Positions 26,069-30,918 of a stretch of 64,000 nucleotides of DNA are shown piece after piece. The first letter of the stretch is position 1. Every line of letters begins with the position of its first letter. This DNA is from Methylophilus sp. 14. Its GTDB lineage: Bacteria > Pseudomonadota > Gammaproteobacteria > Burkholderiales > Methylophilaceae. The notes below the pieces were generated by a model that made no database searches, was not told where the DNA came from, and saw only the letters and a program-made list of their open reading frames with translations. The position numbers and the translations under genes are program-made. The stretch is from assembly GCF_015354345.1 (NCBI RefSeq), contig NZ_JADKYS010000001.1, positions 806,001 to 870,000 on the forward strand, read 5' to 3'.

Positions 26069-27232
26069 ATGGCTAAGATTGCAATGGTGGCGGGAGAGGC
26101 CTCCGGAGACTTGCTGGGCTATCATCTCATTCAGGAACTGAAGTCGTTACAGCCTGAGGTCGAGATTTTCGGCATCGCGGGCCCCAAAATGATGAGTTTG
26201 GGGGCTAAGTCCTTATTTCCAATAGAACGCCTGTCTGTGCGCGGTTACCTTGAGGTGCTGCGTCACTTGTGGGGGTTATTGAAACTGCGCAAGCAGCTGT
26301 ATAAACATATCCTCAAAGAAAAGCCTGATGTCTTTATTGGCATAGATGCACCTGACTTTAACTTCTGGTTAGAGCGCAAGCTCAAAGCCAAAGGCATTGC
26401 GACCATTCATTATGTGAGCCCTTCGATCTGGGCCTGGCGGCAAAAGCGCATCCACAAAATCAAACGCGCCGTCTCCCATATGCTGGCGCTGTTTCCGTTT
26501 GAGCCGGCGTTGTATCAGCAGGTTGGCGTGCCTGTCACTTATATCGGCCATCCTCTGGCGGATGCCTTGCCCATGGAGCCCGATGTTGGTCTGGCCAGGG
26601 AAAAACTCAAATTGAAGAAAAACCAGGTGGTGATTGCCATGCTACCCGGCAGTCGCCAGTCTGAGGTCGCGTTCCACGCGGATTTATTGTTGGAAACCGC
26701 GATCGTCTTCGATCGCCTGATGCGCGAGAATGGTCAAAGCGTGCAGTTTCTGGTGCCATTGGTCACGCGCGAAACACGCGATATTTTTACCAGTGCCTGG
26801 CATCAGTTGCTCACGCAAAAGCCTGATACCGCCATAGACCTGCAAATCATGTTTGGTCATGCGCACGACGCCATGACGGCCGCCGATGCAGTGCTGGTGG
26901 CCTCTGGCACCGCGACGCTGGAAGCTGCCTTGCTGAAAAAACCTATGGTAATTACTTACAAGATGTCCAACATGAGCTGGCAGTTGCTGAAACGCATGCG
27001 CTTGCAGCCTTATGTTGGCCTGCCGAATATTCTGGCCGGTGAGTTTATTGTGCCGGAGTTATTGCAAAAAGAAGCGACACCAGAGCGTGTGGCACAAACG
27101 CTATACAATCTGTTGGCGGATAAAACCGGCCTGGCAAGCTTGCAGGAGAAATATCGCCACATTCATGCGCAGCTCAAGCAAAATAGCGCGCAAAAAGCCG
27201 CCGCAGTGGTTAAGCAGTTTTTACATGTCTGA
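26069..27232 (+). CDS. lpxB: lipid-A-disaccharide synthase
   Basis: A 387-residue GT-B type glycosyltransferase that joins lipid X with UDP-2,3-diacylglucosamine to make the lipid A disaccharide, at the inner membrane. Supporting segments are the N-terminal [15 protein letters not shown], the [15 protein letters not shown] and [18 protein letters not shown] blocks, and the nucleotide-binding LPGSRQSEV and [21 protein letters not shown]. It lies 12 bases after lpxA. Confidence 0.97.
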
Positions 27233-27237
27233 TCTAT

Positions 27238-27813
27238 ATGCAACAATTATGTGGCATTGATGAAGCGGGCAGGGGGCCATTGGCAGGGGCGGTCTATGCT
27301 GCTGCCGTGATCCTGAATCCGGCGCGACCGATTGCTGGTTTGGCCGATTCCAAAAAACTATCAGAAGCCAAACGCGATGCGCTGGCGATTGAAATCAAGG
27401 CGCATGCGCTGGCCTGGGGCATTGCCAGCGTCAGTGCGCAGGAAATCGACGAAATCAACATTCTGCAAGCCAGCCTGCTGGCCATGCAGCGCGCTTACCA
27501 GGCCATGGTGGATCAGTTTGGCGTGCATGCAACACTGATTCAGGTCGACGGCAATCGGACTCCTAAATTTGAATTACCTTGTGAGGCGATTGTAAAAGGT
27601 GACAGTAAAGTCGCTGAAATTTCTGCTGCTTCTATTCTTGCTAAAACTGCCAGGGATGCTTCATTGCTGGTGCTGGATGCGCAGTATCCACAATATGGTT
27701 TCGCGCAGCATAAAGGCTATCCAACGGCGTTACATCTGGAGCGTTTGGCACAATTTGGCATCACGCCTGAGCATAGACGCAGTTATGGGCCAGTGAAAAA
27801 GCTATTAGGCTAA
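27238..27813 (+). CDS. rnhB: ribonuclease HII
   Basis: A 191-residue RNase HII, which nicks RNA in RNA-DNA hybrids and removes misincorporated ribonucleotides. The catalytic motif [14 protein letters not shown] (Asp8, Glu9) is present, followed by [11 protein letters not shown] and [21 protein letters not shown]. It lies five bases after lpxB, at the end of the envelope-biogenesis operon, a conserved position. A short hairpin follows at 27814-27828 and another at 27849-27869. Confidence 0.97.
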
Positions 27814-27848
27814 CGGGCTTGATGCCCGAGAAATTCCCTGCTCTTATC

Positions 27849-27869
27849 AATGCGCTTGTCAGGCGCATT
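27849..27869 (+). terminator. weak terminator-like hairpin after rnhB
   Basis: AATGCGC / GCGCATT (7-bp arms, 7-base loop) followed by a short T-stretch. It is the best candidate for the 3' end of the long operon, but the T-run is poor. Confidence 0.35.
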
Positions 27870-28054
27870 TCCAACTCCTCTCTTTTCTGCTTGTCATCCC
27901 ACTTTCGTGATGATCGTGATGGTTACCAGGTTACTCACATGCACTCATTTAAACTTTAAATGTTAATTAAAGTTAACAATATTGTGTTATTGTATTTATT
28001 TACATCCTATTTTTAGTGCAGATATGTAAGCTTTAAGCTGATTGAGAGAGCCTG

Positions 28055-28273
28055 ATGATGCATAACAATCCATTGACCCCGGCGCTATCTGATTTAATGA
28101 AAGCCTGCCAGAAATTTAAAACCACAGAGTCCAAAGTGTTGGCCGCCCATTTAAACAAATCACCGGCGACGGTGCGCACCGAGTTTCAGCGCGCGATGGC
28201 GCTGATGAATGTAAATTCACGCTATGCAGCATTAAAAACGGCTGAGGAAAATGGTTGGCTGGAAGTGTCGTAA
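28055..28273 (+). CDS. small HTH protein resembling a LuxR-type DNA-binding domain
   Basis: A 72-residue protein made almost only of a helix-turn-helix like that of LuxR/GerE regulators. TTESKVLAAHLNKSPATVRTEF matches the scanning helices, and ALMNVNSRYAALKTAEENGWL matches the last helix. No receiver or ligand domain is attached. The upstream 95 bases are markedly AT-rich, and GAGAG lies before the two adjacent ATG codons. It is followed after 137 bases by a large protein of unknown function on the same strand and may regulate it. That link rests only on adjacency. The HTH call is moderately secure. Confidence 0.6.
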   Translation: MMHNNPLTPALSDLMKACQKFKTTESKVLAAHLNKSPATVRTEFQRAMALMNVNSRYAALKTAEENGWLEVS

Positions 28274-28410
28274 AAACGGTATTAAATAGCATTAATTGCA
28301 TCTATTTTCTTATAAAATGTATGCAATTGCAGTATGGCTATCTTTCGTCAAGTTGCGTAACTTGAATGCCTCAAACGGATTCAATCACAACATGACTGAG
28401 GATAAGTGCC

Positions 28411-30519
28411 ATGCAAAAACAAACTTTTAAACGGCAAAACATCTCTGCTGAGTTAAGCAAGTTACGGAGCAATTTTCAAACCCTGATTGCAGGGAATGCA
28501 AATTACTTTGGACACTTATCAGGCGCCACTTTGCCCAAGGCAGTACAAAAAATTCAAGGTAATACTCACTATGAGAGCCTGGGTTGCCTGGGATTGCAGC
28601 CGCAATTTAATTTGCTCAAAGCCGTGGTCTATATTAACCAGGACAGTGGTTATGCTGGCAGTTTGTGTTCAGCGGGCTCGCAAGAATATGTGCGGTTTTA
28701 TTTATCCTTTGACGATGGGGTAAGCTGGGTCGATCAGGGGCTGACCAGTTTAAATGTCCACGACGTGAAACATGACGGCCGCTTGGAATATGCGGTAGAG
28801 ATGCCGGTGGATATCAAGCGCTACTCCTGCAAAAAACCGAATCAACTTTTAGCGCGCGCGATCTTGTCCTGGGGCGTGGCGCCGCCAGCCAATACGCCTC
28901 ATTATATTCCTGTTTGGGGGAATGCGGTCAGCGCCCATATTCTGGCACAACCAGCGCAACACCTGCTACTTAAAGACTTGATTGATATTTCAATTTTGAA
29001 AGAGGTGAGCGCGCTGGTGGACCTGGATTTGAAGGTGCCTACCACCGTTTTGCCAGTGAATTATGTGGCCCTCGAAAAAAGTTATAGCGAGGCACAACTG
29101 GCACCCCACCGTTTGGCTTACCCGTTAGTGCATGCCTTGATGGCGCAGCCTGCCAAACTCAGTGCATTGCAAGCACAGGGAGCACATGCGTTTGGCCCGC
29201 TGAAATTTGATTGGCCTAAAGTCATAGACAGTATCGCCAATACAGATGGCAATATTGATTTTGAAGAGCTCAATTGTATTGGTTTGCAACCAAAAGCTAC
29301 GCTGGACCATTTGGTTGGCGTGTTGAAGATCAAGAAGTCACAGGGGTATGCGGGTGGCCTATGTACAAAAGGCAGTCAGGAGTATGTGCGTTTTTATCTG
29401 GACTTTGGCGCAGGCTGGCAAGATATGGGGCTGACTTCGGTGCAGGTGCACGATATTGCTAGTATGCCCAAAGATGGCTTCAATTATGCGGTGTTTTTAC
29501 CGGTTGATTTGAGCCAATATAAAAAGCCCTGCAAGCAGGGGCCTGTGTATGCAAAAATGCGCGCCATTCTCTCGTGGAGTTCACCGCCGCCAGCTAACAC
29601 GCCCGATTATCAGCCGGTATGGGGCAATACTGAAAATACCACCGTGATGTTAACGCCGGGCATGGCTAATCAGGGCGGTAAGCCTGCACCTATCATTACC
29701 GCGGTTTGCGGGCAAAGTATTGCCGATATTCACCCGACGACAGGCACATTGACCAACGCTGCCTTCAGTGATGCGCCATTTGGCAATAGTCTTTGGATTA
29801 GCGGCCATATTGGCAATGCGCCAGATGCCAGCAGTGGCATAAGCAAGCTCAAATACCGTTTGAACTACAGCACGGACGGCATACACTTTAACCCTGTGAC
29901 TAATCCTTTCAAACTGGCCTTAGAGCAGTTAAGTGGCGGTAGCTGGACGTTCCCGGCACCTGTCACGCAAACACCGCTGGCAGATGGTTATATTGAATAT
30001 CAGGAAGACTTGATCGCGCCGGTACAAACATTTGTCAATCTGGATATTCTGGGTGTCTTGCACACGGTAGGCGATAGCAGCCCTTATCGCTGGTTGCAGG
30101 TGGAGGTTGTTGATGCTTTAAACCCAGCAATTTCTTATGTATCTAATACAATTAAAGTGCGGGTGGATAACACGGCGCCAACAGCAAGCATCACTATGGA
30201 TCAAGGCCCTTGTTCTGATATTAAGGTAGGGGATGCGATTACGGGTAGCTATAGCGCGTCAGATGATTTCCTGGGTGGCGTCTCTATTGCTATTCTTGGT
30301 AATCCAGGAGGCGTACTCAGCAAAACCCCAGCGGTCAGCACCTCTAGCAATGAGTCGGGCACCTGGCGTTTAGAAACAACAGGCATGACCAAGTGTGGTT
30401 ATGTGGTGCAATTGACCTGTTCTGATCGTGCATTAATAGGCTATGCCAGTGGCACCGCCTATTACACGGGTGGTGGACATCAGTTTCAGCCTGCGGCCAT
30501 CGGTTTCTGTTTGAGGTAG
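28411..30519 (+). CDS. unknown 702-residue protein with a duplicated domain
   Basis: I do not recognise this protein. It contains two copies of a domain of about 120 residues, at about 55-176 and 285-408. Shared blocks are GLQP, GYAG-LC, GSQEYVRFYL, GLTS-VHD, RAILSW and PPANTP-Y-PVWGN. Each copy keeps three cysteines (59, 86, 140 and 289, 318, 374). Residues 430-702 look like beta-sandwich material, with an Ig-like segment around VDNTAPTASITMD and four more cysteines after 600. No signal peptide, lipobox or membrane helix is visible, which is odd for such a cysteine-bearing, beta-rich protein. It stands alone between rnhB and the ferredoxin, with the HTH gene upstream and a terminator downstream. 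Confidence 0.85.
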   Translation: MQKQTFKRQNISAELSKLRSNFQTLIAGNANYFGHLSGATLPKAVQKIQGNTHYESLGCLGLQPQFNLLKAVVYINQDSGYAGSLCSAGSQEYVRFYLSFDDGVSWVDQGLTSLNVHDVKHDGRLEYAVEMPVDIKRYSCKKPNQLLARAILSWGVAPPANTPHYIPVWGNAVSAHILAQPAQHLLLKDLIDISILKEVSALVDLDLKVPTTVLPVNYVALEKSYSEAQLAPHRLAYPLVHALMAQPAKLSALQAQGAHAFGPLKFDWPKVIDSIANTDGNIDFEELNCIGLQPKATLDHLVGVLKIKKSQGYAGGLCTKGSQEYVRFYLDFGAGWQDMGLTSVQVHDIASMPKDGFNYAVFLPVDLSQYKKPCKQGPVYAKMRAILSWSSPPPANTPDYQPVWGNTENTTVMLTPGMANQGGKPAPIITAVCGQSIADIHPTTGTLTNAAFSDAPFGNSLWISGHIGNAPDASSGISKLKYRLNYSTDGIHFNPVTNPFKLALEQLSGGSWTFPAPVTQTPLADGYIEYQEDLIAPVQTFVNLDILGVLHTVGDSSPYRWLQVEVVDALNPAISYVSNTIKVRVDNTAPTASITMDQGPCSDIKVGDAITGSYSASDDFLGGVSIAILGNPGGVLSKTPAVSTSSNESGTWRLETTGMTKCGYVVQLTCSDRALIGYASGTAYYTGGGHQFQPAAIGFCLR

Positions 30520-30544
30520 CGGTGGATGGTCGGCATGTAAATGT

Positions 30545-30571
30545 AAAAAGCCGCTCATTGAGCGGCTTTTT
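30545..30571. terminator. bidirectional intrinsic terminator
   Basis: Perfect 11-bp stem A5-GCCGCT / AGCGGC-T5 with a 5-base loop, between the 702-residue gene (plus) and the ferredoxin gene (minus). It works on both strands. Confidence 0.92.
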
Positions 30572-30594
30572 ACGTTCGGCTAGGGGCAGACTGA

Positions 30595-30918
30595 TTATTC
30601 AATCAATTGTGCGGTTTTGCCTGCTTTGCCGTTCATGGCATCTGCATCTGGCAGCGGCTCTTTACGTGCGGTGATGGTTGGCCAAACGGTCGATAAGCGC
30701 GCGTTGAGGGCGATAAAGTGTTGTTGATCAGCCGGCACATCATCTTCAGAGAAAATGGCTTCTGCCGGGCACTCAGCAACGCACAGTGTGCAGTCAATAC
30801 ACTCATCCGGGTTGATTGCCAGGAAGTTAGGGCCTTCAACAAAGCAATCTACCGGGCATACATCGACGCAGTCGGTATATTTGCACTGAATACAATTCTC
30901 GGTTACTACATAAGTCAT
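30595..30918 (-). CDS. fdxA: 7Fe (3Fe-4S / 4Fe-4S) ferredoxin
   Basis: A 107-residue seven-iron ferredoxin of the Azotobacter FdI / FdxA type, a low-potential one-electron carrier. All nine cysteines of that type are present at 9, 12, 17, 21, 25, 40, 43, 46 and 50, in [17 protein letters not shown] and [12 protein letters not shown]. These serve one 3Fe-4S and one 4Fe-4S cluster. The C-terminal tail with [10 protein letters not shown] and VWPTIT also matches. It lies 86 bases downstream of cysN on the same strand and may carry electrons to the sulfite reductase of that cluster. AAGGA precedes the ATG. Confidence 0.95.

Follow-up and report, generated by a model that had tools for sequence, protein, structure and literature searches.

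The locus studied here raises the question of whether two genes that lie side by side between rnhB and a ferredoxin gene (fdx) in Methylophilus sp. 14, one for a lone helix-turn-helix (HTH) protein and one for a much larger protein, form an undescribed system, as a sequence-only reading of the window (the whole 64,000-nucleotide stretch of DNA that was analysed) had proposed. Both open reading frames (28055-28273, 72 aa, and 28411-30519, 702 aa) are present as that reading described them, and the unit is free of internal stop codons in all three strains of the genus found to carry it, which are methanol-consuming bacteria. The source genome of the window has 3,015,369 bases in 15 contigs; for this strain PMC8399692 gives 3.02 Mb in 15 scaffolds and an ANI of 91.46% to strain QUAN. 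The locus is laid out as follows.

27804..30543, no strand: insertion, approximate extent, from blastn against the empty rnhB-fdx junction of locus L065
28055..28273, forward strand: stand-alone NarL/LuxR-like HTH protein, 72 aa, with the probable true start at 28058
28411..30519, forward strand: 702-aa protein without signal peptide, in which two repeat domains precede a beta-rich C-terminal half
30545..30571, no strand: hairpin and T-run 3' of the large gene; similar hairpins stand at empty junctions

We considered the large protein first, whose parts are these.

28570..28923, forward strand: repeat domain 1, aa 54-171, with cysteines 59, 86 and 140
29260..29628, forward strand: repeat domain 2, aa 284-406, GEVED-related at the profile level, with cysteines 289, 318 and 374
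29671..30516, forward strand: C-terminal half, aa 421-702, in which cysteines 601, 662 and 700 are conserved

The doubled domain of about 120 residues with three matching cysteines was borne out, since the repeats share 68 identities over 127 residues (54%; E = 3e-41 in a single comparison) and C59/C86/C140 correspond to C289/C318/C374. The blocks GSQEYVRFYL and PPANTP-Y-PVWGN were confirmed in the repeats, a profile comparison of one repeat with the other scored 244.5, and on these alignments the two are plainly homologous. The window protein had no meaningful match in Pfam, NCBIfam, PHROG or PDB families, a search of solved structures by sequence returned none that was significant, and the one hint that the C-terminal half is Ig-like is a weak match in Pfam over aa 625-672 (E = 0.022). 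Prediction of the full-length structure was unusable (mean pLDDT 28), and repeat 2 was modelled with six strands (pLDDT 64, pTM 0.61). Foldseek with the repeat-domain model had no hit at E <= 0.001 in either PDB or BFVD. The best structural match of the repeat-2 model, in a VIA list of GH2 enzyme and factor XIII sandwiches, reached Z 7.9 over 100 residues (rmsd 3.2, 7% identity), a Z under 8 not being specific, and the list indicates no single family; we take the matched domains to be Ig-like or fibronectin-type beta-sandwiches.

The domain had also been called unrecognised, which holds in so far as it scores below the Pfam cut-off and gives way in so far as profile comparison reveals a distant recognisable relative, GEVED (PF20009). 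The window protein itself does not match Pfam GEVED at E <= 10. Its relatives do, 7 of the 12 full-length members at E <= 0.1 and all from residue 333 in repeat 2, the best (E = 2.2e-4, 22.4 bits) falling short of the gathering cut-off of 24.4 bits. When a 12-row profile of repeat 2 was compared by hhalign with flanked GEVED sequences, a small set of 14 domains for which 4 of 114 class genomes were the source, one of them supplying 10, the probability was 92.6% (E = 4.5e-7 in one comparison) and the score 44.3 over 96 columns. The scores of 200 column shuffles did not exceed 22.3, and three other stretches of the large protein, the linker and two from its C-terminal part, scored 9.1-10.9. The choice of alignment rows matters to this result. 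The 12-row profile of repeat 1 gave 5.5%; a 21-row profile mixing both repeats gave 33% and a score of 28.6 with the flanked set (100 shuffles at most 22.3, reversed 10.3) and 9% with GEVED cores without flanks; and the three Methylophilus rows alone gave 1.9% and a score of 17.7, which is inside the shuffle range. The 12-row alignment (A2) is without the single-domain proteins and without G801, in which contig ends interrupt the gene; the 21-row alignment (A6) excludes the QUAN strain, G800, G801 and G804. We conclude from these profiles that the repeat shares distant ancestry with GEVED, as distinct from membership of that family.

Relatives outside the genus are sparse. A search with the repeat profile found matches in 10 of the 369 genomes of the class sample, the own genome included (9 of 368 others), and in the phylum sample of 398 genomes it matched the own genome and none of the 397 others; in the order of G337, 5 of 8 genomes have a match, G337 and G229 being already in the class sample. 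Seven of the nine other class genomes hold a two-domain protein of about 700 residues and two (G272 and G409) a single-domain form, as does G057. The non-genus full-length proteins are 33-41% identical to the window protein, the alignment extending from an NPNYFGN block in the N-terminal part as far as the last cysteine. Other Gammaproteobacteria have homologues over the full length, with no signal peptide evident in them. No relative was found in plasmids, phages or viral contigs. Two single-domain relatives of different lineages (L036 4704-5426 and L004 1321-1977) are 55% mutually identical and have hydrophobic N-termini; one adjoins what is presumably a peroxiredoxin-like gene, and the other lies between genes that we take to be pirin-like.

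It is the surroundings of these relatives that speak to the proposed system. Neighbours differ across nine loci, with one shared family at E <= 1e-6, found in L033 and L035 (distances to the large gene of about 1 kb and 6.5 kb) and presumably a VOC-family protein; since neighbours are otherwise not shared, the large protein probably acts alone. A search did not locate the HTH at any of 12 non-genus loci, nine two-domain and three single-domain (best tblastn E = 0.19; the flank at L041 and L043 among them, and at L004, is about 1.5 kb only). We therefore abandoned the proposal that the pair is one undescribed and conserved system, on the strength of tblastn at the twelve loci, the neighbour lists of the nine and the class-sample search with the HTH (see below): a match to a known family and homologues without the HTH gene, the two outcomes that would count against it, were both found at least in part. 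Accordingly, the HTH does not define the family and appears to be a local addition in Methylophilus, and the large protein, HTH and palindrome (see below) are probably not a new kind of system. PADLOC gave no match at E <= 1 to four proteins, both window proteins included, and a defence system was rejected. On a link to methanotrophs PF02461 is uninformative, as it was found in 0 of 12 genomes and also in 0 of 14 controls.

The claim that the large protein lacks a signal peptide stands: the open frame has 707 codons against 702 used, which leaves no room for one, and in the window protein the highest mean hydropathy among 12-residue windows starting at residues 1-48 is 0.52. With the starts chosen by us, a strongly hydrophobic N-terminus is missing from all 12 full-length sequences (means over 12 residues of 0.22-1.24); the starts of the non-genus genes were set at ATGs matching other members, a longer frame is possible at several loci, and at L030 the longer frame has a hydrophobic stretch. 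Such an N-terminus is present, however, in two of three single-domain relatives (L036 2.98, L004 1.97), and in the third (L038) the value is 1.65 and the stretch lies further in. As to the cysteines, nine are invariant in the 12 full-length members, and in the 21-row domain alignment the first repeat cysteine is present in all 21 rows; the second and third occur as a pair in 18 and are jointly missing from 3, two of which are close relatives. The simplest reading of this co-occurrence is that the second and third would form a disulphide.

We tentatively favour, at somewhat less than even confidence, a lone adhesin-type binding protein that takes a route free of a Sec signal and is under local control by the HTH and a palindrome. 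The large protein would be a self-contained accessory protein, in which a conserved N-terminal segment precedes two beta-rich domains related to GEVED and a C-terminal half that is likewise beta-rich. It would act alone as a binding or surface-type (adhesin-like) beta-sandwich protein; paired cysteines would stabilise the domains, and the protein would reach its place by a route without a Sec signal. The main objection to this is the missing signal peptide, and the three conserved cysteines per domain, an odd number, are a further point against it. The main rival reading is a cytosolic role: a binding, redox or metal protein of the cytoplasm, whose cysteines would serve as ligands or redox pairs and which would descend from a secreted GEVED-like ancestor and have lost the signal peptide. 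This we hold to be unlikely, though to be taken seriously: the invariance of all nine cysteines fits it, as does the uniform lack of a strongly hydrophobic N-terminus in the 12 sequences, with our starts, when set against the values of 1.97 and 2.98 in the secreted-looking relatives, whereas the co-lost cysteine pair looks like a disulphide and no cytosolic family matched the window protein.

Within the genus, the large gene occurs in 3 of 22 genomes (G000, G009 and G013, the 22 being part of a 61-genome sample) and the HTH gene in the same three. Besides the window strain, the carriers are Methylophilus sp. 42 (89% identical over residues 1-702 of the large protein) and sp. QUAN (88%). We located fdx in 21 of the 22 genomes; three of these loci have the unit, 11 have an empty rnhB-fdx junction, in which rnhB and fdx are direct neighbours whose stops lie 71-102 bp apart, and seven are without rnhB in the fetched 1.5 kb or so. 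The idea of an acquired, lineage-specific unit is supported. AAAAAGC stands at both insert ends (27795-27815 and 30540-30551), possibly as microhomology and possibly by chance. In a tree of fdx and cysN from 21 strains the order among five strains, the three carriers included, is not settled, so one gain followed by losses is not separated from two gains.

Between the window and QUAN, identity in 250-bp slices averages 0.962 to the left (18 slices) and 0.948 to the right (20 slices) of a block at 26750-30749, inside which the mean is 0.818 (16 slices, range 0.72-0.88), so that rnhB and part of lpxB were exchanged along with the unit. Between sp. 42 and QUAN the values are 0.893 to the left, 0.890 inside and 0.857 to the right; QUAN is thus nearer to sp. 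42 inside the block and nearer to the window strain outside it. In agreement with this, the fdx and cysN tree pairs the window strain with QUAN (support 99/97), whereas the rnhB tree pairs sp. 42 with QUAN (100/99). The block including the unit has been exchanged between strains by homologous recombination, the recipient being either QUAN or the window strain, and the data support an acquired, lineage-specific and exchanged accessory gene set in Methylophilus. Both genes are under purifying selection, with dN/dS among the three strains at 0.047-0.051 in the large gene and at 0.031-0.082 in the HTH gene; repeat 2 (aa 280-406) is the most constrained segment at 0.011-0.021. The patchy presence in 3 of 22 genomes might suggest acquired DNA that is neutral or decaying; this is very improbable, as dN/dS stays at 0.011-0.135 over all segments and strain pairs tested and internal stops are absent from the three carriers. 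The HTH gene (28058-28270) has a dS of 0.37-0.58 against the other two strains, compared with 1.18-1.39 for the large gene in the same block, and either extra constraint on the DNA or a separate exchange would account for the lower value.

We then considered the HTH protein and the DNA around it, where two features concern us.

27961..27999, forward strand: AT-rich block 5' of the HTH gene, a possible promoter or regulatory region, kept in three strains
28294..28328, no strand: imperfect palindrome of 35 bp, a candidate operator of the 702-aa gene, centred about 101 bp before its start codon

The HTH start is probably the second ATG (28058), as the first is missing in one of two orthologues read. 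That the protein has no sensory part was confirmed: it has 72 aa, scores 15.3 bits (E = 0.016) against Pfam GerE (PF00196), below the cut-off of 23.5 bits, and over residues 4-69 aligns weakly (E = 0.47) with residues 139-202 of the DesR effector domain (PDB 4ldz). In the class sample of 369 genomes it was found in the own genome and elsewhere matched only one 207-aa response regulator (L086, 33% identity, E = 4.4e-5), and in PHROG it has a weak match to a sigma-factor family (E = 0.033). By these likenesses we take it to be, most likely, a DNA-binding domain of NarL type that lacks a receiver. The leader ahead of it is AT-rich as claimed, with a G+C of 0.386 over 27814-28054, as low as in 1.3% of 241-bp window slices; the block at 27961-27999 is conserved in the three strains and the remaining leader has diverged. 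No sigma-70-like promoter was called within this block, which holds a GTTAA/TTAAC dyad.

The suggestion of an operator in the spacer between the two genes gained a concrete candidate in the palindrome, which all three strains have kept although the spacer around it has diverged in places. Allowing up to 3 mismatches, its 31-bp core was found once per carrier genome and nowhere in the 19 other genus genomes; the reversed sequence gave no match and 100 window shuffles gave none, and no comparable palindrome was found in the 320 bp before 10 non-genus genes. One site per genome suggests local control, and on our preferred reading the receiver-less HTH would bind the palindrome and set expression of the large gene in the three Methylophilus strains. 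The spacer also folds as RNA better than all 200 shuffles (z = -3.2), so the palindrome may fold as RNA. This, together with the HTH's absence from the 12 non-genus loci, is what one would expect if the HTH and large gene were unrelated passengers of one recombining block and the palindrome an RNA hairpin or relic; we consider that rather unlikely, because every one of the 3 carriers has the HTH, the large gene and the palindrome and the 19 other genus genomes have none of them, and because the palindrome is kept where parts of the spacer change.

An adhesin-type protein with local HTH control remains our tentative reading, with binding function, location, disulphides and the contact between HTH and palindrome all predicted. 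A broader history can be drawn, in which a GEVED fold gave rise to a sparse two-domain, signal-less family exported by an undescribed route, Methylophilus gained a regulator and a single-site operator, and the cassette was swapped by homologous recombination; as a whole this is quite improbable. The locus nevertheless links an unannotated family of several gammaproteobacterial lineages to the adhesin GEVED domain, and the two-domain form without a signal peptide poses a testable puzzle on the site of action. The Methylophilus unit is a compact set of regulator, candidate operator and target with one site per genome and is directly testable.

Compared with known systems, the closest likeness of the large protein is to GEVED, which was defined in CshA-type fibrillar adhesins; according to PMC10952558 the domain was defined in fibrillar adhesins, for which it is stated to be unclear whether adhesion stems solely from GEVED and its partner domain. 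In the profile alignment the YV-F-DF strand of repeat 2 falls on the L-WID-N strand of GEVED, its LPVD strand on VPA, RAILSW on the RFR strand and the final WGN block on GEVEDY. However, the GEVED motif near the domain end is absent, its aligned place reading WGNTENT in the window protein and WGNREET in most relatives, and the repeat has conserved cysteines and scores below the Pfam cut-off. In addition, GEVED adhesins are secreted and anchored, with a signal peptide, whereas the two-domain family, with the starts chosen here, is without a signal-peptide-like N-terminus in 12 of 12 full-length members. The repeat-2 model also aligns with Ig-like and fibronectin-type sandwiches, within the limits of a Z under 8, 7% identity and a model pLDDT of 64. 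Similarly, NarL-type response regulators have an N-terminal receiver, while the 72-aa protein is an HTH only, without a sensory domain; it agrees with NarL/LuxR-type regulators near its end, where EENGWL in the window protein corresponds to KEKGWF in DesR and RENGWL in the L086 regulator.
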